From: a virus
Direction: 5' to 3' (one strand)
IMG/VR virus record: IMGVR_UViG_3300021963_000442
Coordinates: 1 to 31,527 of that record
Length of the DNA stretch: 31,527 nucleotides
Part shown: positions 2,965 to 20,314 of the stretch, piece by piece
How positions within the stretch are numbered: position 1 is the first letter of the stretch
How the letters are laid out: every line of letters begins with the position of its first letter
Notes under the pieces: generated by a model
Seen by the model: the letters and a program-made list of their open reading frames with translations, nothing else
Told to the model about the DNA's origin: nothing
Database searches by the model: none
Position numbers and translations under genes: made by a program

Positions 2965-3144
2965 GTGAATTCTTCTCAGAAAAACTATAAAGATTATATC
3001 CAGGGTAAAGCTAGGCTAGAAAATGCCATTATTCAGCACCCAAGTGGAGATAATAAGATTATGGATCTTTTACAGAAAGAAACCAATAGAACCTTCTGGG
3101 TTAAACCATTCGCCGATTGGAAAAAACAAACTACAAAGAAATGA
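2965..3144 (+). CDS. Small hypothetical protein, 59 aa, GTG start
   Basis: A 59-codon frame that starts with GTG and ends in TGA at 3142-3144. Two things support it: a candidate late promoter 19 nt upstream, and an ATGA overlap with the next gene, whose ATG is at 3141-3143. Such overlaps usually mean translational coupling. The product is polar and basic at the C-terminus (KKQTTKK), with aromatic residues in FWVKPFADW, and has no signal peptide or membrane segment. I do not recognise a family. It is easily missed because of its length and GTG start. Confidence 0.6.
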   Translation: MNSSQKNYKDYIQGKARLENAIIQHPSGDNKIMDLLQKETNRTFWVKPFADWKKQTTKK

Positions 3145-3560
3145 TTCCATTTGAATTACAAAGCGGATTAGACGAACCTCAAAATGAGGGCATGGATGTA
3201 TCAACTTTCATGTTAAGTCTACTACAAATCAGAGACCAAGCACATATTTTACATTGGCAAACAACTAATGAAGCTCAGCATAATGCGTTTGGAGCTTTCT
3301 ATGATGATTTCTTAGGATTAGTTGATGAAATTGCTGAACAGGTAATTGGAAAATACGGCAGATTTAAAGTTGGAGGTTGCGCAATCTTAGTTATGGACTA
3401 CGATCAAGCAATGCCAATTTTTATCCAAAATATTGAAAAGGTATTTCAACAAGATTTTTGTGAAATCTTTGATCAAGAATCAAATACTGAATTGTATAAC
3501 TTAAGAGATGAATTTTTATCTCTTAAAAACAAACTAGCTTATAGATTAACCCTAGACTAA
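3141..3560 (+). CDS. Dps/ferritin-like four-helix protein
   Basis: A 139-residue protein. I place the start at the ATG at 3141 rather than an in-frame TTG at 3117, because the ATG overlaps the upstream stop as ATGA and the TTG would sit inside the previous gene. The segment LQIRDQAHILHWQT, then QHNAFGAFYDDF and VDEIAEQV, reproduces the Dps-family pattern: His...HisTrp on helix 1, a second His after the loop, then Asp/Glu (DEIAE) on helix 2. These are the residues of the Dps ferroxidase centre. Related ferritin-like proteins occur in other T4-like phages as an uncharacterised family. Iron or oxidative protection of DNA in the virion or host is plausible, but no activity can be claimed. The gene ends in TAATG, overlapping the next start by one base. 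Confidence 0.6.
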   Translation: MIPFELQSGLDEPQNEGMDVSTFMLSLLQIRDQAHILHWQTTNEAQHNAFGAFYDDFLGLVDEIAEQVIGKYGRFKVGGCAILVMDYDQAMPIFIQNIEKVFQQDFCEIFDQESNTELYNLRDEFLSLKNKLAYRLTLD

Positions 3561-5182
3561 TGCTTAAATTTAAACACATAAATATTCTAGAACATCTTCT
3601 TTTAGAGTCAGATCTAATTATCATTGGAAATGAGGCTAATGATATAATTAGCATTGAAAATGATGCAGATATGCTTGCTAAATTAGATGCATTTCTATCT
3701 ATGTTGATAGAAAAGGATATTATTAATAAATCAAAGACTGATCCTAATGTTTTAGAACAGCTTAGTCAAGTATTTCTACAAACACGATGGATTAAAATCT
3801 TAGATAAGTATATCGACTATGTTTCACAGGTTTTAAAGTTAGAAATTTCTGAACTTGAAAATTTAGTAAAAAATGGTCGAGACACTGAAACCCAACGCGC
3901 AAGAGTTGCAATATATGAACAGCGTCTAAAAACAATTTGGGACGCATATCATGTAATCGAAGAGGCAAAATGGACAAAGGAAGTAAATGACCTTTTATCT
4001 AAATTAAAAATTGCAGCTTCTGATCTTGGTGAAGAAAAGGTAAATCAAGCTGAAACCTTAATGAAAGCAATTGAGGCAAACTTTGGTAAAAATTCAGAAG
4101 ATGAAGATGCGATTAAGGATGATGTTAGACAAGCGGTTCAGGTTGCAGAAATCTTAGACGGTTTTTCTAAAAAGAAAAATCGAGTTGAACCAGATATTGA
4201 AGATATTGATTTTATTGAGATAGTTAGCCCAGAATTTGAAGAAGAACAGGCTACTAAATATGATGAAAGCCAAGAAAAAATTGAAGAGCTTAAAAGAAAA
4301 ATTAAAGAATTATCAGATGAGCTCAACAAGAAAACTGGAGGTCGAGCTGAAAAGTTTACCAAAAGAGATGTTCTTATTAGATTAGCAATTGAAGAACTTA
4401 GAACTTGGCCAGATATTAATACGCTTGAATCAAAGTTTGTTAAAGTTAGAACTGAGATTATGACAGATCCTAGACGAGGAACTGACGATCAAACAGCTCT
4501 TTCTAGAGAAGCCAAATCTACTTATATGGCGCTTGCCGTTGAAGCTTATATGGAAGCTAGAGCACGACTTGGTAAATACAAAACTGACCTAGATCTAAAA
4601 AGATATCGTGGAGTATCATATTCACCTGAAATTGCACTTCCTCTATATGAAAAGCAGCTAATTCCAATTACATCTAAGCAAATGTTAGATTCAAGCCGAA
4701 TTAACTACTTATTAAAATTAGGCGAACTTATTGGAAAAGGTTTTCTTTTCTTTAATGATAACGTTGAAGGAAATGAGCAAAAGGTTCTTGGAGAAGTTTT
4801 TGCAAGAGCACGTAAAGCAACTAAACCAGTAGTCGGAAGAGCTATTTCAAGAACAGCTAAGAAATTAGGTGGAAAGGAAGCTCAATTAAAAGCTGAAAAA
4901 TGGACAAGATTCCTTTTTACAAGTTCAGAAAGCGGACTAGATGATCCTCAAAGTAAAATTAAAGGTGCAACAAAAGTTGGATCAGGTACAGTTAAGGAAG
5001 ATGTTGCTTCACCAGGAGTAGCATTTCAAACGCCAGCTTCAATTGGAGGTTCAGGTAATCCACTTGCACCAACTCCAACTTCACTAGGATCTGGTGATAA
5101 TTTTCAACCAAAAAAATCTAAAAAGTCTAATAAAAATATTATGGACTTTAGCAGCTTTTTTAAAAATTTAAATAAAAAGTAA
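3560..5182 (+). CDS. Coiled-coil hypothetical protein, probable virion/internal head protein
   Basis: A 540-residue protein that I do not recognise. Its N-terminus (FKHINILEHLLLESD) ends in an LLE|S sequence that resembles a capsid-targeting peptide followed by a T4 gp21-type (L/I)xE cleavage site at residue 16. The middle is highly charged and helical, with a likely coiled coil near residues 230-265 (EEQATKYDESQEKIEELKRK onward). The C-terminal 100 residues are low-complexity, rich in Gly/Ser/Pro/Thr, and end in a basic Lys/Asn tail. The start overlaps the preceding stop (TAATG), so the two are probably co-translated. Its size and position within the cassette suggest a structural or encapsidated protein. 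That is inference from context. Confidence 0.55.
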   Translation: MLKFKHINILEHLLLESDLIIIGNEANDIISIENDADMLAKLDAFLSMLIEKDIINKSKTDPNVLEQLSQVFLQTRWIKILDKYIDYVSQVLKLEISELENLVKNGRDTETQRARVAIYEQRLKTIWDAYHVIEEAKWTKEVNDLLSKLKIAASDLGEEKVNQAETLMKAIEANFGKNSEDEDAIKDDVRQAVQVAEILDGFSKKKNRVEPDIEDIDFIEIVSPEFEEEQATKYDESQEKIEELKRKIKELSDELNKKTGGRAEKFTKRDVLIRLAIEELRTWPDINTLESKFVKVRTEIMTDPRRGTDDQTALSREAKSTYMALAVEAYMEARARLGKYKTDLDLKRYRGVSYSPEIALPLYEKQLIPITSKQMLDSSRINYLLKLGELIGKGFLFFNDNVEGNEQKVLGEVFARARKATKPVVGRAISRTAKKLGGKEAQLKAEKWTRFLFTSSESGLDDPQSKIKGATKVGSGTVKEDVASPGVAFQTPASIGGSGNPLAPTPTSLGSGDNFQPKKSKKSNKNIMDFSSFFKNLNKK

Positions 5183-5183
5183 A

Positions 5184-5540
5184 ATGCAAAAAATTAAAAC
5201 TTTCGAATCATTTTCTCAAGAAGATTTCGAACCTACTCAATTACAACCATTCCATGCAGAGCGTCCAGAATCTCATGATGAAGAATCTCATGAAACTGGA
5301 GCGGAATACGAAAATTACATGTTCTTTGGTAATCTTAAAACTATTAAAAGATGTATTGATCTTCTATTAGAAATGGATGAATCTAAAGTTGATGAAATTT
5401 TATCAAATGGCCATGCATGGGCAGCAGATCATATTGCAACATCAAAAGACGATGTTGAAGAAGTACTTGATTTTTTACTTAATGAAGTTAATGATTCAGA
5501 AGATAAAGAATTAATTCAAGAAGAACCAGAACAATACTAA
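5184..5540 (+). CDS. Small acidic hypothetical protein
   Basis: A 118-residue protein starting one base after the preceding stop. The N-terminus MQKIKTFESFSQEDFE has the TFESF pattern shared with other proteins of this cassette and with the T4 internal-protein leader (TYQEF), though the following SQE is a poor (L/I)xE site. The rest is strongly acidic, with Glu/Asp/His-rich stretches around 27-42 and 100-118. A predicted helical core lies at 50-105 (TIKRCIDLLLEMDESKVDEI...). No catalytic motif is seen. Possibly an internal head protein; function unknown. Confidence 0.5.
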   Translation: MQKIKTFESFSQEDFEPTQLQPFHAERPESHDEESHETGAEYENYMFFGNLKTIKRCIDLLLEMDESKVDEILSNGHAWAADHIATSKDDVEEVLDFLLNEVNDSEDKELIQEEPEQY

Positions 5541-5559
5541 AAATAAAATAATTTTAATT

Positions 5560-5760
5560 ATGGCACAACATCCAGCAGATCTAGCAATGGCTAGAGGAGT
5601 AAAGGTAATAGCAACACCCGCAGTTATCACAAAGGAAGTAGAAAAAGCGACTAAAGCCGCTGAAAAAGCAGTTAAAGATGCGCAAAAGGCAGCTGAAAAA
5701 GCAGCAAAAGAAGCAATTGCTGCAGTAGAAGCTGCAATTGAAACTAAAGACGCAGAATAA
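5560..5760 (+). CDS. Ala/Lys/Glu-rich helical small protein
   Basis: A 66-residue protein. After a short N-terminus (MAQHPADLAMARGVKV), residues 24-60 are almost entirely Ala, Lys, Glu, Val and Ile in a repeating KAAEKA-type pattern, predicted to form one long amphipathic helix. The sequence resembles histone-H1-like or coiled-coil segments rather than an enzyme. It is AT-spaced from its neighbours, with an A-rich leader and no Shine-Dalgarno. The low-complexity sequence leaves an open frame on the opposite strand too, but only this direction fits the gene order. DNA binding or packing in the head is speculative. Confidence 0.55.
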   Translation: MAQHPADLAMARGVKVIATPAVITKEVEKATKAAEKAVKDAQKAAEKAAKEAIAAVEAAIETKDAE

Positions 5761-5764
5761 TTAA

Positions 5765-6292
5765 ATGTCACCTAACCTCCAATATCATTTAAATGAAAAT
5801 TTGTGTATCGCTGAGTCGGTTTTTAGACCAGGTAGCGATGCACATATTTCTTTATTGACTGAGGCCAGGTTTCACTTTGAAAATGGGGTTAAACTAGACC
5901 CAATTACAGAAGAATTATTCATAAAAACTGATTTAGGCTTTATTGGAGAATATCACGGAGAGCCAGTTCCACTAGATTTTCCGATCGAAGAAATTAACGA
6001 AGCCGAATATCATGGAAAAGAGGTAGACCTTAACTATCCAAGACGAGGCGGTACTAAAAAGTATCACGTTTACGTTAAAAATCCAAAAACTGGCAAAGTC
6101 CTTAAAATTGCATTTGGTGATATTCATGGAGGACTTACCGCAAAGGTAAGTAATCCAAAGGCTAGAGCAAGTTTTGCAGCTAGACACCAATGTCATCTTA
6201 AAAAAGATAAAACCAAAGCAGGTTATTGGGCATGTAGAATTAATAGATATGCTCACCTATGGGGAGGTAAAACTTATCCAGGTTATTGGTAA
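5765..6292 (+). CDS. Conserved phage protein with C-terminal RARHxC...YWxCR-type domain
   Basis: A 175-residue protein. The C-terminal half (about 90-175) has KKYHVYVKNPKTGKVLKIAFGD, then NPKARASFAARHQCHLKKDKTKAGYWACR. I recognise this arrangement from many T4-like and marine phage proteins of unknown function; conserved Cys and His residues could bind metal. In the N-terminal half, SLLTEAR at 29-35 matches a gp21-type (L/I)xE|A processing site, which would release a mature protein starting at Ala34. The gene begins four bases after the previous stop. The domain is widespread but uncharacterised, so I call only a conserved phage family and infer virion association from its neighbours. Confidence 0.6.
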   Translation: MSPNLQYHLNENLCIAESVFRPGSDAHISLLTEARFHFENGVKLDPITEELFIKTDLGFIGEYHGEPVPLDFPIEEINEAEYHGKEVDLNYPRRGGTKKYHVYVKNPKTGKVLKIAFGDIHGGLTAKVSNPKARASFAARHQCHLKKDKTKAGYWACRINRYAHLWGGKTYPGYW

Positions 6293-6300
6293 TTAATATT

Positions 6301-6585
6301 ATGAATAAAGTACTTTCATATTCGGAATTTATTACAGAGGCACGAAAAACCAAAAACTCGCCAGATTGGCATGACTCAAATGCGCCTGATGCAAATGGTA
6401 AATTTAAAAGCCTTGGAATCAAAGCCCTAGCTTCATGGTTAATTAAAACTAGAGGTGGTGATATGAGAAAAATTACAGGTAGTCTTAATCAGCAAATTGT
6501 TTTTAACCGCAATGACAATCCATCCTATGCTAAAAAGATGGAAAAGGTTAGAGAAGAAGTAAAAAGACAACTTAATAAAAAGTAA
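6301..6585 (+). CDS. Small internal-head-protein candidate with T4-like capsid-targeting leader
   Basis: A 94-residue basic protein. I chose the ATG at 6301. An in-frame TTG at 6286 lies inside the previous gene, and the ATG places a leader, MNKVLSYSEFITEAR, at the very N-terminus. This is strikingly like the T4 internal-protein capsid-targeting sequence (MKTYQEFIAEA), which gp21 protease cleaves after the Glu; here the cut would be after Glu13. The body contains SLGIKALASWLIKTRGGDMR, then KITGSLNQQIVFNRN and a helical Lys-rich C-terminus. I recall similar sequences in other large phages but know no function. The expected role is as a protein packaged with DNA. Confidence 0.6.
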   Translation: MNKVLSYSEFITEARKTKNSPDWHDSNAPDANGKFKSLGIKALASWLIKTRGGDMRKITGSLNQQIVFNRNDNPSYAKKMEKVREEVKRQLNKK

Positions 6586-6591
6586 TATCCT

Positions 6592-7068
6592 ATGTACGTA
6601 AAGCCATTTAGCGAATATGTAAGTTTGCTTGAGAAAAAGTCAAATTCAGAAAATCCGGCGCAATATAAAGCTCCAGAAGGAAGTTCTAGAGACAAAAAAT
6701 TGGATAAGGCCAAGCAATTATTGGATAGTGGTAAAAAAGAAGCTGCATATAAACTTAGAGATGAGATGGAAGCAGCGGAAAGAAAGAAATCCGGTTGGAA
6801 AAATACTCCAAGACCAGATTCAAAGGTGACTGAGGCTAGCAAGAAAAAATCGTCTAACCTTAGTAAAGAAACCCTAGCTAAAATTAAGGCAGTTGCTGAT
6901 AAAAAAGGTTATTCATTTGCCGATTTAAAACGTGAATACACTAAAGGTCTAGGTGCATTCTACTCTTCTGGTTCCAGACCAGGAATGACTGCTCACCAAT
7001 GGGCAATGGCTAGAGTAAATGCAGCAAGTCCAAGTAAATCTTGGGCCGATGTTAAAAAGACTAAGTAG
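6592..7068 (+). CDS. Lys-rich conserved phage protein with GLGAFYSSGSRPG motif
   Basis: A 158-residue, very basic protein. The leader MYVKPFSEYVSLLEKKS resembles the capsid-targeting leaders of neighbouring genes, with LLE|K as a candidate (L/I)xE site at residue 14. Residues about 25-85 are charged and helical. The C-terminal region carries KGLGAFYSSGSRPGMTAHQW followed by AMARVNA, a motif I recognise as recurrent in small proteins and protein tails of T4-like phages, of unknown function. High Lys content (near 20 percent by eye) suits a DNA-associated internal protein. An ATG start with A-rich upstream sequence lies six bases after the preceding stop. Confidence 0.6.
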   Translation: MYVKPFSEYVSLLEKKSNSENPAQYKAPEGSSRDKKLDKAKQLLDSGKKEAAYKLRDEMEAAERKKSGWKNTPRPDSKVTEASKKKSSNLSKETLAKIKAVADKKGYSFADLKREYTKGLGAFYSSGSRPGMTAHQWAMARVNAASPSKSWADVKKTK

Positions 7069-7069
7069 C

Positions 7070-7336
7070 ATGCATCCGTATAAAGATATATCATCTGGCG
7101 ATAACTGGGTAATACGAGAATTCACCCAAGCAGTTGATCCAATTGAACTATTATGGCACAGAGATGATGAAGACCGCGAACTCGAATTAATTGAGGGAAG
7201 AGGTTGGAAGATACAGCTAGATAATAGCTTACCATTAGAGTTAACTCAAACCCAAAGAATAAATATTAAAAAGCATGATTGGCATCGACTAATTAAAGGA
7301 GATGGTAATCTGGTTGTAAAAATCTATAAATCATAA
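7070..7336 (+). CDS. Small cupin-like conserved phage protein
   Basis: An 88-residue protein. I chose the ATG at 7070, one base after the preceding stop, over an in-frame ATG at 7019 that would overlap the previous gene by 50 bases. The sequence WHRDDEDRELELIEGRGWKI, then LDNSLPLEL and KKHDWHRLIKGDGNLVVKI, has conserved His residues in a beta-rich pattern. It resembles small phage proteins with a single-domain cupin-like look (HRxIKG near the end). Known relatives are uncharacterised. No capsid-targeting leader is apparent. Confidence 0.55.
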   Translation: MHPYKDISSGDNWVIREFTQAVDPIELLWHRDDEDRELELIEGRGWKIQLDNSLPLELTQTQRINIKKHDWHRLIKGDGNLVVKIYKS

Positions 7337-7337
7337 A

Positions 7338-8057
7338 ATGGCATTCGAAATAGGGGATAAAGTTAAGCTTAGATTATCTAAAGATACGATGGATCGTCTT
7401 AATCTAGTAGGCGCTCCAATTGATAATAAAATTGTTACTATCGGTAAAGTTTATAAGTTAGACTATGCCCCAGACCAAACTTTATACATGGTTGATTTAG
7501 ATGAGCCAATTAAATTTGAAGAAACTACATTTGATGAGATTTATGATTTAAGAGATGCAGATTTAGACCTAATCGATGCAAATGAGGCTCTTCCAGAAAA
7601 TAAAGTATTAAGATTTTCTTCTTTCTTAACTGAAGCAAAAAAACCTGCACACTGGTACTTTGGAATTGCTGATTGTCATGGTGTAGAATCTTTTAATAAA
7701 GAAAATATTGACCACACATATCTAGATCAACTAGACAGAATTCACGATTTAGGGTTGGCTGATGAAACTGCTCCAACCAGAAAGAGTGTAATGAAAGAAT
7801 ATAATGGTCAATTGAATATGATGATGATGCGTTGCAGATTCAATGAACAGCGCCACCCAGTAGTTTATAGAGTTTTATTAACAGATGATGTTGCTGACTA
7901 TATTCAATCATTTATCGATCAACGTGATTATATTAGCGCCCTAAATGCAATTAAAGATCACTCAACAGAGATTCAATTAGCAAGAGGACAAGGTGCAAAT
8001 CTAGAAAGACGCTGGAATATGATTCCTAATCCAGATCTTGATCCATTCCACGGATAA
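7338..8057 (+). CDS. Two-part protein with internal capsid-protease-like site
   Basis: A 239-residue protein, ATG one base after the previous stop. Residues 1-85 look like a small beta-barrel (FEIGDKVKLRL..., SH3/KOW-like) with an acidic end. Then VLRFSSFLTEAKKPAHW at 90-106 matches the leader-plus-cleavage pattern seen at the N-termini of neighbouring proteins. FLTE|A is identical to the residues around the T4 gp23 maturation site. Residues 105-239 form a separate, mostly helical domain with a run of Met (MMMMR) near 160. The placement suggests a long propeptide or two fused units released by the prohead protease. No enzyme motif is seen. Confidence 0.5.
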   Translation: MAFEIGDKVKLRLSKDTMDRLNLVGAPIDNKIVTIGKVYKLDYAPDQTLYMVDLDEPIKFEETTFDEIYDLRDADLDLIDANEALPENKVLRFSSFLTEAKKPAHWYFGIADCHGVESFNKENIDHTYLDQLDRIHDLGLADETAPTRKSVMKEYNGQLNMMMMRCRFNEQRHPVVYRVLLTDDVADYIQSFIDQRDYISALNAIKDHSTEIQLARGQGANLERRWNMIPNPDLDPFHG

Positions 8058-12165: not shown

Positions 12166-13884
12166 ATGCCAAGTGATGCTTTATCGGGAAATTCAAACTT
12201 AACTAGTGGATATCGTTCTAAATCTAACGATTATGGAATAAGTGTTTCTTCTGTATTAGATAAGCGACCAGATGAGTTGCCTAATATAATGTACGCATTT
12301 AGAAATGGCCGTACCGAGAGTGTTGGAAATGAAGATCCAACTTACTTTGGATTTTATATTGATATACACTCAACTGAATCTGAAGCAAAGGGAATAGAAA
12401 ACCCATTTACTGGATTAAGAGCAAACCCACTATTCTATTTTCCAGATACAGAAGGCAACCTTAATGTTGATACTGGATTTATGTCAACCAAAAATGATGG
12501 TAAACAGAATTTTAAATCACTTGCAAGTAATCCAAGCGAGGCTAGTGCTATTCAATTCTTAAATCATTTTGGAAATGAAACATTAGAAGATGAATATGAA
12601 GAAATTTGGTCAAACTCAGTTCCCCTAAAAAATAGAGCAAATTCAACTCTAGATGGAATTAAGCCCGATAGCTCAGAACTAAATAGAGGTTATTATTTAG
12701 CAGAATTTAGAAATATCCTAAACTTAATTTTAGCAAAAACTCCATGGGTTTTTAAAGAAATTGATGGAATAAACTCACTATGGGAGAATTCATATAAACA
12801 TAATACGACTGAAGCTACACTTACAATAAAGTGCGAAGAAACAGTTGATCTAAGAATAACTAAACTTGCACATTATTATAAGATGCTTTCATGGGATTCA
12901 TTTAATAATAGACGAGTTTTACCGCATAATTTGTCACAATTTTCAATGGACATATATTTAATGGACCTAAGATTCTTAAAAAGTGCGGTAGATATGGGTG
13001 GAATTAATATTGGATTGGGATTTGGTAGTAATGCAATGTATGATAATTCATTTAGCGCACAAATTAATTTTGGTGGAATTGGTTTTAGATGTATGGGATG
13101 TACATTTGATTTTTCTGGATTGCTAGATAGCTATTCATCTGGTGTAAAATCTAATATAACTGATTCTAGTTATCAACCATCATTTAAAATCAAAGTTAAA
13201 CGAGTTTTACCTGCATCTTATTTTGGAGACCAATCATTTGGTTATGCAACGCTAGGCGAACCTAATTCATTCGTAACTACTGCACTTAGTAGTGCGCTTA
13301 ATGGAGCATTGAATTTAGGACCTTTTACTGGAGGAGTAACTAGAGTATTAACTGCGGCAAAAAATAAACTTGCCAATATTTTAGGAACACCACAAAGATT
13401 ACTAAATGATGCACTCCAAGGAGTTCAACAAAATTTTGAAGCAGGTGTTAATAATTTCCTAGGAGATAATGGACTTAAGATTAGTCCATATGGAAGTGCA
13501 GTATCAGTAGAAGACTTAGTAAATGGAAGAAGAACCTCTCCATTAACTGGAGATATTTTTCCAGGATCTGATTCTAGAACTGCTCCAAGAATAACCCAAG
13601 ACATTTTTCCTGGAGTGGATAATCGAAAAGCCAATCCAATCAGACGAGATGAATTTACTGGAGTGGATAATCGAACGACTGATCCGATTAAAACAGATAT
13701 GTTTCCAGGAAAAACTGTACAACAGAAAAGTCCAATTAAAATGGATGTATTTACTGGTTCAACTAAGACTGAAAAGGGTTCAATTAAATTTGACGTTTTT
13801 CCAGGAGATGGTTCAGTTTCAGCTTTAGTAAACCAAAGAAAACAAGGAGGTAAAATAAGTAGTCAAAACCCATATAAGTCATAA
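12166..13884 (+). CDS. Tail structural protein with C-terminal FPG tandem repeats
   Basis: A 572-residue protein. Residues about 170-350 include HYYKMLSWDSFNNRRVLPHN and LSQFSMDIYLMDLRF, then FRCMGCTFDFSG and FKIKVKRVLPASYFG. This resembles the tube-like fold domains of phage tail initiator or baseplate proteins and the 8122 protein, but I cannot match it to a named T4 gene. Residues 459-549 form about six imperfect repeats of 16-17 residues with the core PI..D.FPG..NR. The last 20 residues are basic. It is flanked by hub and spike genes with 1-3 base spacing, so a baseplate-centre role is likely. The stop overlaps the spike start by one base. Confidence 0.55.
   Translation: MPSDALSGNSNLTSGYRSKSNDYGISVSSVLDKRPDELPNIMYAFRNGRTESVGNEDPTYFGFYIDIHSTESEAKGIENPFTGLRANPLFYFPDTEGNLNVDTGFMSTKNDGKQNFKSLASNPSEASAIQFLNHFGNETLEDEYEEIWSNSVPLKNRANSTLDGIKPDSSELNRGYYLAEFRNILNLILAKTPWVFKEIDGINSLWENSYKHNTTEATLTIKCEETVDLRITKLAHYYKMLSWDSFNNRRVLPHNLSQFSMDIYLMDLRFLKSAVDMGGINIGLGFGSNAMYDNSFSAQINFGGIGFRCMGCTFDFSGLLDSYSSGVKSNITDSSYQPSFKIKVKRVLPASYFGDQSFGYATLGEPNSFVTTALSSALNGALNLGPFTGGVTRVLTAAKNKLANILGTPQRLLNDALQGVQQNFEAGVNNFLGDNGLKISPYGSAVSVEDLVNGRRTSPLTGDIFPGSDSRTAPRITQDIFPGVDNRKANPIRRDEFTGVDNRTTDPIKTDMFPGKTVQQKSPIKMDVFTGSTKTEKGSIKFDVFPGDGSVSALVNQRKQGGKISSQNPYKS
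13540..13812 (+). repeat. Six degenerate ~48-51-nt repeats encoding PI..D.FPG
   Basis: In-frame repeats encode SPLTGDIFPG, PRITQDIFPG, PIRRDEFTG, PIKTDMFPG, PIKMDVFTG and SIKFDVFPG, with variable spacers. Conservation is at the peptide level more than the DNA level, which suggests selection on the protein. Confidence 0.75.
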
Positions 13885-14684
13885 TGTTAAACCGTAATGC
13901 CGATATTAATAGATCAGGAGATAGTTCCATTGATTATCTTGTTAAAAGATATATGGGAACTGTTGTTGATGCAAATGATCCACTAAAGGAGGGTCGTTGT
14001 CGTGTTAGAATACACGGTCTATTTGATTCGCTTGCAGTTGAAGATATTCCATGGGCAAACCCTGGAACAAAGCCCACATTTTTTGGAAAAGAGGGCGCAG
14101 CTAGTATTTCAATACCAAAAAATGGAGCACTAGTTGTAGTAAGATTTGATCAAGGAGATATTTACAGCCCAGAATATGAACAATTACAGGAACTTGCAAA
14201 GGACCTACAAGAAGAACTTAAAAAGGATGGAGAATATCTTGGATCCCATTTTATTTTATGGGATGGCGATGAGGCTCTTAAATTATGGTTTACCGTTGGA
14301 AAGGGGTTAACCTTTGAAAATAAAGAATCCAGAATTAATATTGCACAGGATTCTAAAATAACAATTGAGCATAAAGAAACTCAATCAATTATTGAATTAG
14401 AAGGACCTACTATTAATATTGTAGCAAATTCAACAGTAGATATTAATGCTACTTCTGAAGTTAGAGTTACATCAAGTCAAGTATGGCTAAATGGAGATTT
14501 TACCCGATTGGGACACAGCCCTTCAACTGAACCTGCAGTTATGGGTAATGCAGTTATGACAGCTTTAAAGAGTCTAGCTAGCGCAGTTGATGGAAAGCTT
14601 CCAGCCACCCCAGGGCTAAATGCAGGAGTAATTGCTGCCCTAGAACCTAATGTTTTATCAAAAACCGTTACAGTAGGCTACTAA
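13884..14684 (+). CDS. gp5-like baseplate spike protein without lysozyme domain
   Basis: A 266-residue protein. Residues 20-110 form the N-terminal OB-fold typical of gp5/VgrG-type spikes: [35 protein letters not shown] and [17 protein letters not shown] helical linker follows. Residues about 145-215 are short repeating strands ([59 protein letters not shown]) expected to make the triple-stranded beta-helix needle. The T4 gp5 lysozyme domain between these parts is absent. The protein would trimerise on the hub and help puncture the cell envelope. Its position after the hub and 12166 genes fits. A short Ala-rich C-terminal segment follows the needle. Confidence 0.8.
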
Positions 14685-14703: not shown

Positions 14704-15567
14704 GTGAAAGACTATTATAATATACTAGAAGTAGAGCGTGGATGTAGTCCGGATGATATTAAAAAGGCATATAGAAAACTTGCCATTAAATATCACCCAG
14801 ATAAAAATCCAGATGGCGATTCCAAATTTAAGGAAATCGCTGAGGCTTATGGTGTATTAGGAGATCCAGATAAACGCAAAAACTATGATAGAAGCGGTTC
14901 AACTGGATCGACCTTTGAGGATCTTCGAGATATGTTTGGTGGATTTGGAGCTGATGATATTTTTACTCAAAACTGGGGAATCAACTTAGATATTGTAGTT
15001 AATCAAAAAATTGAACTTAGAGATATTTTAAATGGTAAAACCATTGAAGTAGTCTATACAAAAAAGGGAGAATCTACCCCTATTAGATTTAGTGTTGATC
15101 TTAACCCCGATACAACTAAACACCAATTAATTTTTGATGGAGCTCGTGCATTTTCTAGATTAACCTTCCAAAATATGGGAAATCAAGGTAAACTTGGTGG
15201 AGGAAGCATGTTTAACCGAACTTTTATTGGTAACTTGTATGTTTTATTGGATATTGTATTACCAGAAGGAATCTCAATTGATGCATCAGGTAATATTATA
15301 GATAATCGCGAGGTAAGCCTAGATGAGTTAATTAATATTGAAAACTTAATCTTTACTTCAGTAACTGGCACAAACTTTAAGATAAAATCTATCAAAGCTA
15401 AATCATTTAATGATATTAGAATAACTATTCCTGGCCGAGGAATTGGTACAGGGTCTCCAAATAAAGGCTCGTATGTATTTAAAATTCACACAAAGGTGCC
15501 TAATTTCGATAAACTAACTGATCTCGAGAAGCAAGATCTAATAAGCCTAATAAATAAGACTAAATAG
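14704..15567 (+). CDS. DnaJ-family co-chaperone (J domain plus C-terminal domain, no zinc fingers)
   Basis: A 287-residue protein starting at a GTG preceded by an A/T-rich leader. Residues 3-65 are a complete J domain: [20 protein letters not shown], then [10 protein letters not shown] with the essential HPD at 31-33, and [19 protein letters not shown] short Gly/Phe stretch ([11 protein letters not shown]) follows, then a beta-sandwich C-terminal domain starting [18 protein letters not shown] and ending near [20 protein letters not shown]. The CxxCxGxG zinc repeats of type I DnaJ are missing, so it is closer to the CbpA/type II layout. It would stimulate a host DnaK ATPase. Its location between tail and capsid genes suggests a role in virion protein folding. 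That role is inferred. Confidence 0.85.
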
Positions 15568-15637: not shown

Positions 15638-17671
15638 GTGGTCCTTACAGGCGTAAACGAAATTACAAATACTTCAGATATGCTCTTCATTATTGAAAGA
15701 GTAAATGAAGGTCTAAACACAGCTAAGTTAGAGAACGGAGACATTGTTATGGAAGGTGTTTGTGCAGTATTTGACACAAAGAACAATAACAACCGCATCT
15801 ACGAAAAAGCTGAGTATCTACCGCACCTAGAATACCTAAACGAGAAAATCGAAAGAGGTCAATTATTTGGTGAGTTAGACCACCCTCAAAATTTTGACGT
15901 TTCACTTAAGAATGTTTCTCACGTAGTTGAGAAATTATGGTACGATCAAGATTCTAATAACGTAAAAATTAAAGTACGTCTGCTAAATACACCAGCTGGC
16001 CAGATTGCAAAAACTCTAGTTGAGTCAGGCTGTACAATTTCAACTTCTTCACGAGCTGCTGGTCAGGTAATGAATGAAGGTAAAGTAAAAATCCAAAGAA
16101 TATTCACATATGACTTAGTAGCTGAACCAGGTTTCAGTGAAGCAGTTCTTAGAAGATCAGTTAACGAAAGTTTCCAAAGCAATTATTCTATGCTTTTCGA
16201 ATCTTTGGATAATATTAAATCAACCTCAATTATAAACAAACTGGTAGATATTTCTGAAAGCTTAAACCTCGCAGAATCGATCAAAGTTTATAAGATAAAT
16301 AATGAAGAGATAGTAAAACCTATGGAAAATAATAACAAACACATGACTAATGAGTTTGTAACGAAAGAAGCATTCAACCAATACTCTGAACTTGTTAAGA
16401 GCAAGTTCGACGCGCTTAAAGAGAGCGTAGATAAAATGGTTGATAACTTCGCAGTTACCGAAGACGACCAACCTGCTGATGCTCCAGTGGTTGAAGATCC
16501 AAACGCTGAAAAAGAAGAAGAAAAAGCACCCGCAACTAATGATCAATTAGTTGAGTATGTTAACTATCTTTCAAGCGAGCTTAGCAAAGTAATTGAATAT
16601 AACAATTACCTTTCTGGCATGTTAAACAAATCTATTAACTATTCTGAGCATGTTGCTGAGAGAGTTAATAACGTAATCGATTACTCTGATTATCTTGCTG
16701 AAAAAGTTGAACAGGGTATTGGTTATTCTCAATACGTTGCTGAAAACTTAAATAATGCAATTGATTATTCTGAGCATATCGCTGAAAACGTAAACAAAAA
16801 TATTAAGTACACAGAATACTTAGCAGAAAACCTTGATAAAGGAATTCAATATTCTGAGTATGTTGCTGAAAAATCAGAACAAGGTATCAGATATACTGAA
16901 TACGTTGCTGAAAACTTAAAGCACTCTATTGGTTACGCTAACTATCTTGCTGAAAACCTTGAAAGAGGAATCAAATATTCTGAATATATTGCAGAATCAT
17001 TAAATGAAGGTGGAGTTGGTATCTCTGTTAAAGAAGGTTCAGCTTTAAGCCAAATCGAAAAATTACAAGAATCTGTAAACTATCAAGTTGCTGAAGGTTC
17101 TAATGTTAATGATATTGTTAGCTCAGTTAACTCTATCGTTAAGCATATCAAAGATAACTCAGCTAAATCTGTATTAGAAAGCAGATATCCATTCTTAAAA
17201 CTTCTTAATGAAGATAATAAATCAAGATTCTTTAATTTAGATCAAACTCAAAAAACTGCTATTATTGAAGCTCTTTCAGGTGCAGTTTATTTCAAAGAAG
17301 AAGATGTTCTTCAAATTATTGAGTCTGTTCTTAACAAACAACAAGAAAACATTCCTAACTTAATCAAATTCATGCCTGCTAAATTTAAAGAAGTTTACGA
17401 AAGCATGACGTCTGCTGAAAAGAGCCGTTTAGAAGCTCAAGCTTCTCTAACTGTTTTAAACACTCCTTATCAAGTTAAAAACTTCTGGGAGAGCAGAGAT
17501 TTAAGAGGAGTTAATGAAAGAATTTATTTCGAAACACAAAATAAAAATGCGCAACAAATCAACGAAAGCCAAGGTAGAGAAGGTTTTATCTCGATTGAAA
17601 AGGTTGCGGAACATCAAAGAGGTTATGGTAATGCATACCTCGACGCTCTAAAAAGAAGAGCACAAAACTAA
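15638..17671 (+). CDS. Fused prohead protease and core scaffold protein (gp21/gp22-like)
   Basis: A 677-residue protein. Residues 14-180 are a T4 gp21-type prohead protease: GDIVMEGVCAVFDTKNNNNR, LFGELDHPQNFDVSL with catalytic His82, VSHVVEKLWYD, then GQIAKTLVESGCTISTSSRA with the nucleophile Ser137 or Ser138, and YDLVAEPGFSEA. The C-terminal 470 residues are scaffold-like: acidic and helical, with a 14-residue tandem repeat at about 307-457 and a further helical domain (INESQGREG near the end). In T4 the protease and main core scaffold are separate genes (21, 22), so this is a fusion. The protease is expected to remove the scaffold and trim capsid proteins at (L/I)xE sites. A start at GTG 15638 is supported by the promoter spacing; the next ATG, codon 15, is possible. 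Confidence 0.85.
   Translation: MVLTGVNEITNTSDMLFIIERVNEGLNTAKLENGDIVMEGVCAVFDTKNNNNRIYEKAEYLPHLEYLNEKIERGQLFGELDHPQNFDVSLKNVSHVVEKLWYDQDSNNVKIKVRLLNTPAGQIAKTLVESGCTISTSSRAAGQVMNEGKVKIQRIFTYDLVAEPGFSEAVLRRSVNESFQSNYSMLFESLDNIKSTSIINKLVDISESLNLAESIKVYKINNEEIVKPMENNNKHMTNEFVTKEAFNQYSELVKSKFDALKESVDKMVDNFAVTEDDQPADAPVVEDPNAEKEEEKAPATNDQLVEYVNYLSSELSKVIEYNNYLSGMLNKSINYSEHVAERVNNVIDYSDYLAEKVEQGIGYSQYVAENLNNAIDYSEHIAENVNKNIKYTEYLAENLDKGIQYSEYVAEKSEQGIRYTEYVAENLKHSIGYANYLAENLERGIKYSEYIAESLNEGGVGISVKEGSALSQIEKLQESVNYQVAEGSNVNDIVSSVNSIVKHIKDNSAKSVLESRYPFLKLLNEDNKSRFFNLDQTQKTAIIEALSGAVYFKEEDVLQIIESVLNKQQENIPNLIKFMPAKFKEVYESMTSAEKSRLEAQASLTVLNTPYQVKNFWESRDLRGVNERIYFETQNKNAQQINESQGREGFISIEKVAEHQRGYGNAYLDALKRRAQN
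16556..17008 (+). repeat. Tandem 42-nt (14-residue) repeat within the scaffold gene
   Basis: Ten full copies plus a partial one of the unit Y-x-x-Y-(L/V/I)-A-E-x-(L/V)-x-x-x-I-x, from Tyr307 to about residue 457. Peptide copies include YSEHVAERVNNVID and YSQYVAENLNNAID. The DNA copies have diverged, so the period is held by selection on the protein. It is predicted to be a regular helical or coiled-coil rod. Confidence 0.85.
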
Positions 17672-17688: not shown

Positions 17689-19245
17689 ATGTCTACAAAA
17701 GTATTTAAAAGACTAAATGACGCTTCTGTTAAGTCAACTTGGACTCCAGTTTTAGAAAGCTATGGTGTAAACGCTGATGCTCGTCCTTGGTTAGTAGATT
17801 ATTGCCACTATCACGCAATGTTCGAAAACGCAGGTTCAATCAACGAAGCAACTGTTACTCCAGGCTTGTTCTATCAACAACCAGGTTCAATTAGCGGACA
17901 AGGCGCTGCATTTGCTCCTACTACAGGTGCAAACGGTTCAGGTGATAAATTCCCTAGCCTTCTTCCAGTAGCTATCCAAGTAGCTGCTAAAACAATTGGT
18001 TTCGACCTAGTTGGTGTAGTTCCTATGGACTCTCCAGTTGGTTTCCTTCCTTACCTAGATTATGTTTACCAAGGTGGTAACTTAGGTACTGAATTCGAAC
18101 CATATTTGATCAAAATCGCTGATTTCACAACTGGTGAGAAAGCTACTTTCACAGCAGGTGCTGAATATACAGTAGATGGTGACGGTGCTGGTACAGGTGC
18201 ATTACTTACTCTTCAGTTCGTAGGTGCTTCACGTATCGACGGTCAATTGATCTTCAAAGTAGTTTCTTCTGATTCTGATATCACTTTAGCTACTTACTTA
18301 GGTGCTGGTAAAGTATTAAACAGTGTAACTTTAGATGCTGCTAACGTAGTTTCTTTAGTATCTGCTTTAGAAAACCACATCTCTGGTTTCACTTCAACTT
18401 CAACTGAAGCTCACACAGATTTCGGTGGTCCTTTCCTTACTGGAAATGAGTACACTCAATCTATGACAAGAGCTGAAGGTGAAGCTTCTAAATTCCGTCA
18501 AATGGGTCTTAAAATGTTCACTAAGTTCGTTGAGGCTAAAACTTCTCAAGTTTCTATCTCTGCAACAGTTGAGCAAATCCAAGATCTTAACAGAGTTTGG
18601 AATTTCGACGCAATCTCTATGTTAGAGAACGTTGCAGTTAACGAGCTTGCTCAAACTATCAACAAAGAAATCGTTTCTAAAGTTAAAGCTTTAGCTTCAT
18701 CTCACGCTACTGCAGCTGCTGCAGCAGAAGGTTATGCTGCTACTGTAACTGTTACTCCTGGTTCAGGTACTTTCGAAAACGTTACGACTTCTCAAAGAAA
18801 ATTAGTTACTAAGATTCTTGAATCTGCTAACTTAATTTACCACAGAGCTCGTTTCGGTGCTGGTACTTTCGCAGTAGTTTCTGCTAAAGTTGCATCTGCT
18901 ATGGCTGATGCTGCTGGTTACTCAATCGCTCCTTTCGCAAATGACTTAGGTTCTGCTGCAGGTACTTTATACCCAGCTGGTAAAGTTTACGGTTTAACTG
19001 TATACGTTGATCCAAACTTGAAGTTCAATGATGCAAACGTTCTTATCGGACGTAAAGGTGCTGACGAAGAGCCAGGTCTTAAATTCATGCCTTACATCAT
19101 GGCAGAATCTCTTCAAACTATTTCTGAGGGTACTTTCTCTCCGAAAATCGGTATGAAGTCAAGATATGCTTTGGTTGAAGCTGGATGGCATCCACAAACT
19201 CAGTACGTTCAATTCGCAATCGATGACGTTACTAAATTAGGTTAA
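17689..19245 (+). CDS. Major capsid protein (gp23-like)
   Basis: A 518-residue protein, close to T4 gp23 (521). The diagnostic HK97-fold/gp23 segments are IQVAAKTIGFDLVGVVPMDS followed by PVGFLPYLDYVYQGG (T4: NLIAFDICGVQPMNSPTGQV), KFVEAKTSQVSISATVEQIQ plus DLNRVWNFDAISMLENVAVN, and SEGTFSPKIGMKSRYALVE near the C-terminus. The N-terminal 53 residues look like the delta region removed during maturation: GSINE|ATV at 49-56 matches the gp21 (L/I)xE|A rule. Codon use is shifted towards TTC, AAC and ATC relative to its neighbours, as in very highly expressed genes. It is followed by a strong terminator, and the leader AAAATTTTTAAAACAAA is typical of Bacteroidota. Confidence 0.92.
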   Translation: MSTKVFKRLNDASVKSTWTPVLESYGVNADARPWLVDYCHYHAMFENAGSINEATVTPGLFYQQPGSISGQGAAFAPTTGANGSGDKFPSLLPVAIQVAAKTIGFDLVGVVPMDSPVGFLPYLDYVYQGGNLGTEFEPYLIKIADFTTGEKATFTAGAEYTVDGDGAGTGALLTLQFVGASRIDGQLIFKVVSSDSDITLATYLGAGKVLNSVTLDAANVVSLVSALENHISGFTSTSTEAHTDFGGPFLTGNEYTQSMTRAEGEASKFRQMGLKMFTKFVEAKTSQVSISATVEQIQDLNRVWNFDAISMLENVAVNELAQTINKEIVSKVKALASSHATAAAAAEGYAATVTVTPGSGTFENVTTSQRKLVTKILESANLIYHRARFGAGTFAVVSAKVASAMADAAGYSIAPFANDLGSAAGTLYPAGKVYGLTVYVDPNLKFNDANVLIGRKGADEEPGLKFMPYIMAESLQTISEGTFSPKIGMKSRYALVEAGWHPQTQYVQFAIDDVTKLG

Positions 19246-19469: not shown

Positions 19470-19823
19470 ATGGCAAACCCAGTATTGTCTTACACAGAAT
19501 TCCTAAACGAAAAAGTTAACCAAAACTTAGCAGCTATGCCTGCAGCAGGTTCTAGATTAGGAAAAAGCGTTGATCCTAAAATGGCTAAATTAGATATGCC
19601 TAAAGGTTCTAGCATTAAAAAGTCAGTTGATGCAAAAATGACTGATCTTAAAGCTGCTAAAGGCGCTAAACTTACTAAATCAGTTAATTCTAATTTAGCA
19701 GAAGCTGCCCCTAAAGGTAAAGCTATCACTAAATCAGTTGATCCTGCATTCGGTAACTTGGTTATCAAAGGTAAAGCTATCACTAAGTCAGTTGACCCTA
19801 AGATGGCTAGCAAACAAAAATAA
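19470..19823 (+). CDS. Basic tandem-repeat protein with capsid-targeting-like leader
   Basis: A 117-residue protein. MANPVLSYTEFLNEKVNQ closely parallels the leader at 6301 (VLSYSEFITEAR) and the T4 internal-protein targeting sequence; cleavage would follow Glu14 (LNE|K). Residues 27-117 are five repeats of about 18-19 residues built on ITKSVDPKMA, rich in Lys and ending in a Lys tail. No enzyme motif is present. The location just after the major capsid gene, the small size and the basic character suggest an internal head protein that contacts DNA or the capsid lattice. An antisense open frame exists because of the biased composition and is not credible. Confidence 0.6.
   Translation: MANPVLSYTEFLNEKVNQNLAAMPAAGSRLGKSVDPKMAKLDMPKGSSIKKSVDAKMTDLKAAKGAKLTKSVNSNLAEAAPKGKAITKSVDPAFGNLVIKGKAITKSVDPKMASKQK
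19548..19820 (+). repeat. Five ~54-57-nt repeats encoding ITKSVDPKMA
   Basis: Copies at peptide level are GSRLGKSVDPKMA, GSSIKKSVDAKMT, GAKLTKSVNSNLA, GKAITKSVDPAFG and GKAITKSVDPKMA. The last two are nearly identical in DNA too (GGTAAAGCTATCACTAA shared), which suggests recent duplication. Confidence 0.85.
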
Positions 19824-19834
19824 TTAAAAACTCG

Positions 19835-20314
19835 ATGAGGATTACATTAAGTATACCTCGCAGCATTGTTCAGCACATGGACGAAGTTGGCGTTCCAATG
19901 CAAGAAAGAGCAGATCTTTATGATAGATTTGTTGCATATGCTATTGGTCTAATGACTGGCGATGAGCTTGATCGTTTTGGATCATATGTAGCTGATCATG
20001 AATCAGAATATGCCAGCGAATCAATGACATTCGAGTCTTTTGTTGCAATTAATGAAAAATCTAGAAATTCTCTTAAAGAATTAGTAGGTAAAGATGATGA
20101 AGAAGAATTAGATCTTGACGATGCACGTCGTATTGGAAAGAAAGTTTCCAGAATGACTGGAGATGACCGTAAGAAATTCGTTGGAATTATCAATTTCATG
20201 GGTGCAAGCTGCAGAATATACAATGAAATTTGGGCAAACTATAAACCAGTTGATCCAGAAAGAAAAGATTCCAATAAAGGTAAAGCCTTTAGAGGAGAAA
20301 AACCACAAGCATAA
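19835..20314 (+). CDS. Hypothetical protein, 159 aa
   Basis: A 159-residue protein that I do not recognise. Residues 1-60 are helical (SIPRSIVQHMDEVGVPMQER, LYDRFVAYAIGLM). SMTFESFVAINEKSRNSL at 63-80 contains the TFESF leader-like motif followed by INE|K, a possible prohead-protease site inside the protein. The centre is acidic (GKDDEEELDLDDARRIGKKV) and the C-terminus is basic, ending KGKAFRGEKPQA. It lies 11 bases after the repeat protein and 4 before the next gene. Its position between capsid and tail-tube genes suggests a head-related protein; no catalytic residues stand out. Confidence 0.45.
   Translation: MRITLSIPRSIVQHMDEVGVPMQERADLYDRFVAYAIGLMTGDELDRFGSYVADHESEYASESMTFESFVAINEKSRNSLKELVGKDDEEELDLDDARRIGKKVSRMTGDDRKKFVGIINFMGASCRIYNEIWANYKPVDPERKDSNKGKAFRGEKPQA

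Follow-up and report, generated by a model that had tools for sequence, protein, structure and literature searches.

In bacteriophage T4 the first ten residues of the internal protein IPIII are enough for packaging, and mutational mapping has assigned residues 4 and 7 to targeting and residues 8 and 10 to processing (PMC9026906). Many head proteins of the phiKZ-like giants (201phi2-1, phiKZ and SPN3US) are cut after a glutamate by a gp21-related protease (PMC9026906). The same four IPIII positions define the signature used throughout this analysis, [FY]xx[FY][LIV]xE, which was derived from the T4 leader MKTYQEFIAE and tested against shuffled proteins, a match being counted as N-terminal in the enrichment counts when the pattern lay within the first 25 residues. 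T4 gp23 contains FGSFLTE↓A (arrow, cut position), which fits the full signature and is the known cleavage site of this capsid protein. A literature search covering few subscription journals turned up no account of such leaders in large or huge phages.

The DNA analysed here, an IMG/VR virus record of 31.5 kb from a T4-related phage (31,527 nucleotides; hereafter the window), was compared with G001, its closest long relative (217 kb), with the 735-kb phage LR756501 and with LR756500, of which 400 kb were examined. These three leader-rich genomes are related to one another, and the gene calls for every genome came from one simple script on which all counts depend. A DNA-level search of phage records with the window returned short weak matches only, and most genes of the stretch 3560-8057 received no functional assignment from PHROGs or Pfam. 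The initial annotation had read that stretch as a cassette of encapsidated cargo proteins with T4-like leaders and [LI]xE protease sites, and had described only loosely the fuller pattern of two aromatics ahead of such a site. All the sites it quoted are present, namely FITE↓A at residue 13 of gene 6301 (genes are named by their first position in the window), LLE↓S at 16 (3560), LLE↓K at 14 (6592), LLTE↓A at 33 (5765), FLTE↓A at 99 (7338), LNE↓K at 14 (19470) and INE↓K at 74 (19835). The T4-type reading, capsid targeting with gp21 cleavage, was supported for 6301, 19470 and, internally, 7338, which fit the full signature, but not for 3560 and 5765, which fit [LI]xE only.

By itself, [LI]xE was close to chance in G001, both within the first 25 residues (76 genes versus 58.5 after shuffling, maximum 84) and at any position (214 versus 207), and it was rejected as evidence for a leader. 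The full signature, in contrast, occurred in the N-termini of 11 of 266 G001 genes where 0.55 were expected (at most 4 in any of 2000 shuffles), so that the enrichment over shuffled proteins anticipated for the motif applies to the complete pattern and not to the minimal site. It was found in 58 of 1038 genes of LR756501 (3.3 expected) and in 20 of 550 genes of LR756500 (2.0 expected; for example MKYIKEYEEFILE↓A), where the leaders are nearly uniform, while genes near 85 protease loci drawn from IMG/VR, not all of them independent, carried 77 leaders against about 2.5 expected. The search recovered the T4 positive controls IPII and IPIII, and N-terminal matches were at chance in the control genomes phiKZ (1/369), SPO1 (0/213) and Lak-A1 (1/434), the last being a fair control in that it too is huge and has a related protease, without the scaffold repeats described below. 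There was no clear leader enrichment in PTm1 or immuto, T4-related phages that lack these repeats. The signature is real, and is spread genome-wide rather than confined to a local cassette. Within 3560-8057 we found one canonical N-terminal leader (6301), one internal (7338) and one degenerate (5184), and the notion that leaders mark out this stretch as a cassette does not hold.

The signature was specific in spacing and residues. With the three leader-rich genomes pooled, the exact spacing was found in 89 genes against 6.0 expected, and once these were set aside shifted spacings and a change of Glu to Lys were near chance, and a Glu to Asp variant gave a weak signal. The T4-type pattern of two aromatics, [LIV] and Glu is carried by 6301, 19470 and 83 leader proteins of three relatives with the motif near the initial Met; these 83 proteins fall into 65 body families, and alignment of 79 leaders gave MxxIKxYxxFxNE, with the Glu as the sole invariant column. 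In N-terminal position, length, the four mapped positions, the Glu at the cut, the unrelated bodies behind the leader and the presence of a gp21-type protease in the genome, these leaders resemble the capsid-targeting sequences (MKTYQEFIAE↓A) of T4 IPI, IPII and IPIII. They differ in number (about three genes in T4, dozens in the leader-rich phages), in occurring at internal fusion junctions too, in that packaging is here read from sequence, and in the putative core protein, a fusion of protease and scaffold whose repeats share the signature. The propeptides of phiKZ-like phages have the Glu cut site and a gp21-related protease in common with them, but are specified by S/A-x-E and little else, whereas the leaders have [LIV]-x-E and do not show the S/A-x-E form; phiKZ itself is without signature enrichment. 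The motif is likely to serve throughout the phage genome as a capsid-targeting leader of the T4 type that is removed after targeting.

The canonical N-terminal leader MNKVLSYSEFITE↓A (6301..6339, +) opens a 94-aa gene (6301-6585) and is retained in relatives of 94% identity, with MKYLKTYQQYDVSE↓K in a relative of 71% identity. Another, MANPVLSYTEFLNE↓K (19470..19511, +), opens the 117-aa gene 19470-19823, directly 3' of the major capsid gene, and its signature is retained in 16 of 16 distinct homologues with identity down to 38%. The expectation that homologues keep the leader was borne out in this case and less so for 7338, in whose more distant relatives L331 and L332 it is weak or absent. 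The 19470 protein consists of some five Lys-rich repeats, each roughly 20 residues long (KGxxIxKSVDPKMA); its pI without the leader is 10.3, and it is possibly DNA-binding. Gene 5184-5540, which had been overlooked, has the N-terminus MQKIKTFESFSQED, in which the leader MQKIKTFESFSQE (5184..5222, +) is degenerate; it is clear in relatives, the homologues' leaders being MKLKSYNEFVNE (L296), MKKFKEWLNE (L288) and MRLKKFADWVNE (L303). The DUF5824 gene 6592-7068 begins with a possible variant leader, MYVKPFSEYVSLLE↓K (6592..6633, +), which reads FNEYISLLE in close relatives; conservation of this spacing variant is limited to close relatives, and a general second leader class with such longer spacing was rejected, not being enriched genome-wide. 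In 5765 the minimal [LI]xE match lies inside a wider conserved stretch, and close relatives of 3560 keep its N-terminal LLLE. Neither gene has the aromatic pair, and a leader is not supported for 3560 or for 5765, chance being the reading we would adopt by default for either site.

The gp21-like protease that the initial annotation placed at 15638 was confirmed, and its gene precedes a gp23-type major capsid gene at 17689 (Gp23 family, 4.6e-46). The protease domain (residues 33-173; 15734..16156, +), of gp21-type head-maturation type with GELDHP and SSRAAG, matches Pfam Peptidase_S77 (5.6e-12) and phrog_207 (1e-33), and T4 gp21 (5jbl, E 1.8e-8) was the top match in a structural search with Foldseek; GELDHP and SSRA are invariant in 30 relatives, and both the motifs and the fold are those of peptidase family S77. 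Behind it come a scaffold region of eleven 14-residue repeats (residues 307-460; 16556..17017, +; consensus Y[ST]EY[VLI]AE[NK][LV]xxxIx), modelled as long helices at low confidence, and a conserved C-terminal helical domain (residues 490-645; 17105..17572, +; pLDDT about 80, conserved alignment columns). A protein that is DnaJ-like on reading of its sequence is encoded just 5' of the protease gene (14704-15567). The S77 fold, the helical core region and a gene position immediately 5' of the major capsid gene are shared with T4 gp21 and gp22 and with fusions termed 'prohead core scaffolding protein and protease' (Tenacibaculum phage PTm1), whereas in the window phage a single polypeptide bears eleven regular YxEYxAE repeats of 14 residues. 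The same repeats occur in LR756501 and in IMG/VR relatives, with at least five in 82 of the 85 protease loci, and LR756501 has them outside the protease gene in two proteins (619760-620383 and 715688-716344), three repeats in one and a single repeat near the N-terminus of the other.

These repeats, YxEY[VLI]AE, carry the leader's four positions (YxxY[LIV]xE), which suggests that the tag may work as one scaffold repeat. Residue preferences differ, the leaders having F and N where the repeats have Y and A, and a profile made from the scaffold repeats alone did not find leaders above chance and was rejected as a leader finder, so that any mimicry of repeat by leader would lie in the four-position pattern only. 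Repeats and leaders do not always go together: in L264 degenerate repeats come without leaders, but L295 has seven leaders beside few matching repeats. Docking of the tag as a scaffold repeat, taken as a step on its own, has in our judgement about an even chance of being correct. It is possible, though we think it unlikely, that the signature reflects a cleavage preference of the protease only, the proteins entering the head by other means, their N-terminal piece being a propeptide to be removed, and leaders and repeats having converged on one protease. The failure of the scaffold-only profile to recognise leaders is consistent with this, as is the T4 gp23 site, which has the full pattern though it is no cargo leader. 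However, the aromatic positions in T4 matter for targeting rather than cutting (PMC9026906), the aromatics here belong to a signature in which their distance from the Glu is exact, and the putative capsid site of the window, INE↓A, has no aromatic pair, so that cutting alone may not need one.

A tag addressed to a target other than the head, such as a membrane, a compartment or a polymerase complex, is considerably less probable. Most cargo bodies have no assigned function, but the leader carriers include a NUDIX hydrolase, a polynucleotide phosphatase (PNK3P) and a methyltransferase, enzymes for which another destination could be imagined. Yet T4 packs an enzyme too (Alt), spacing and residues are those of the mapped T4 capsid-targeting sequence including its cut site, and the best conserved case, 19470, lies right after the major capsid gene. 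A description of the cargo as generally basic, DNA-condensing proteins was rejected, pI not being shifted.

Two genes have such a site at the junction of two domains. In gene 7338-8057 the internal leader FSSFLTE↓A (residues 93-99; 7614..7634, +), built like the T4 gp23 site, separates an N-domain that is a separate 105-aa gene in L315 from a C-domain that is a gene of its own in L247, L248 and L251, with a short aromatic-rich start ending FNES or FES. In gene 19835-20314 the leader-like FESFVAINE↓K (residues 66-74; 20030..20056, +) is a signature variant backed by the fusion junction: the C-domain is a gene of its own (about 100 aa) in seven relatives, six of which have a leader-like start (canonical FSSYIQE in L242, FRNFVIQE in L247 and FKDFVTNE in L315 among them). 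Since the downstream domains of both genes are separate genes in relatives, the internal sites look like leaders at fusion junctions, and the propeptide formerly proposed for 7338 is better explained by gene fusion.

Internal copies of this kind, far from start codons, also argue against the leader as a recently spread DNA element (a promoter, translation-start cassette or mobile module) translated by accident, which we regard as very improbable. Leader genes do cluster in the 735-kb genome of LR756501 (17 close pairs versus 5.2 expected), and the near uniformity of the LR756500 leaders would fit such an origin, but synonymous positions of the leaders match genome codon usage and leader DNA identity is 0.609 against 0.604 +/- 0.005 for back-translated peptides, a comparison by which recent spread at the DNA level is largely refuted. 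As this similarity equals the back-translation expectation, selection acts on the peptide and not on the DNA. Chance matches, to which the near-chance frequency of [LI]xE alone might point, are refuted genome-wide by full-signature enrichment tests that all lie above expectation, and have next to no probability.

A few leader-bearing genes also lie near helicase and primase genes in Syn9 (149735-150883), P-SSM2 (158143-159417) and Melnitz (12203-14528), and two of the leader genes in T4-like phages of cyanobacteria and Methylophilales are annotated as cytidyltransferase. The window encodes at 27-2921 a 964-aa protein that, as read from its sequence, has a ligase-like KxDG motif and a part resembling nucleotidyltransferases; its homologues were found in huge phages only, and Melnitz has comparable separate genes with a leader at the start.

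The C-terminus of gene 3560-5182 holds a copy (residues 485-515, PGVAFQTPASIGG...GSGDNF; 5012..5104 or, more widely, 4979-5107, +) of the N-arm of the major capsid protein, the arm itself lying at 17848..17952 (+) after INE↓A (residue 53), where we infer that the capsid protein is cleaved. This copy matches the phage's own capsid arm with E values of 3.2e-6 in the window and 7.6e-11 in G001, is the most conserved part of the 3560 family, and is followed by a Lys-rich tail (PKKSKKSNKNIMDF...; 5108..5179, +). An arm copy with a Lys-rich tail is present in three further lineages, in an 84-aa protein of LR756501 that consists of leader, arm copy and Lys tail (730457-730711; 5.2e-10), in a protein of LR756500 (265261-265644; 1.3e-8) and in PTm1 gp299 (2.5e-10), and each copy is far closer to the capsid arm of its own genome than to the arms of other genomes. 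An AF2 model of the 3560 protein was of low confidence (mean pLDDT 54), and the fold search made from it was set aside. From these sequence features, a role of the 3560 protein as a shell anchor is possible. Directly 5' of this gene, 3117-3560 encodes a starvation-inducible (Dps-like) protein (phrog_858, 3.1e-14).

We infer a course of packaging, docking on the repeats, cleavage and injection. A cargo protein would carry the aromatic-x-x-aromatic-[LIV]-x-Glu tag N-terminally or, where genes have fused, at the junction of two domains, and the two aromatics would dock it into the prohead core, which is probably built from helical repeats of the protease-scaffold fusion and which the tag probably joins by acting as an additional scaffold repeat. 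During head maturation the fused gp21-type protease would cut after Glu in repeats and leaders alike, so that the scaffold would be removed and the cargo, set loose within the head, could be injected along with the DNA. The complete proposal, in which the address tag is a functional copy of the scaffold repeat released by the fused protease at equivalent Glu sites, and in which one arm-copy protein per genome (3560 here) with its Lys-rich tail could anchor core or DNA inside the shell, seems to us to fall slightly short of an even chance. The core idea of the initial annotation was right and its extent much larger than stated; its cassette boundary and two of its five named genes are not supported, and it had missed the largest signals, namely the protease-gene repeats and the distribution of the tag over the whole genome.

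If the proposal is true, the head cargo of uncultured large phages would be readable from sequence alone, with about 50 candidate packed proteins in the 735-kb genome, and the leader-bearing NUDIX hydrolase, methyltransferase and polynucleotide phosphatase might already act on the host within minutes of the start of infection. The old T4 question of how a ten-residue leader directs a protein into the prohead core would become testable, because the core protein here seems to be built of repeats with the same four positions.
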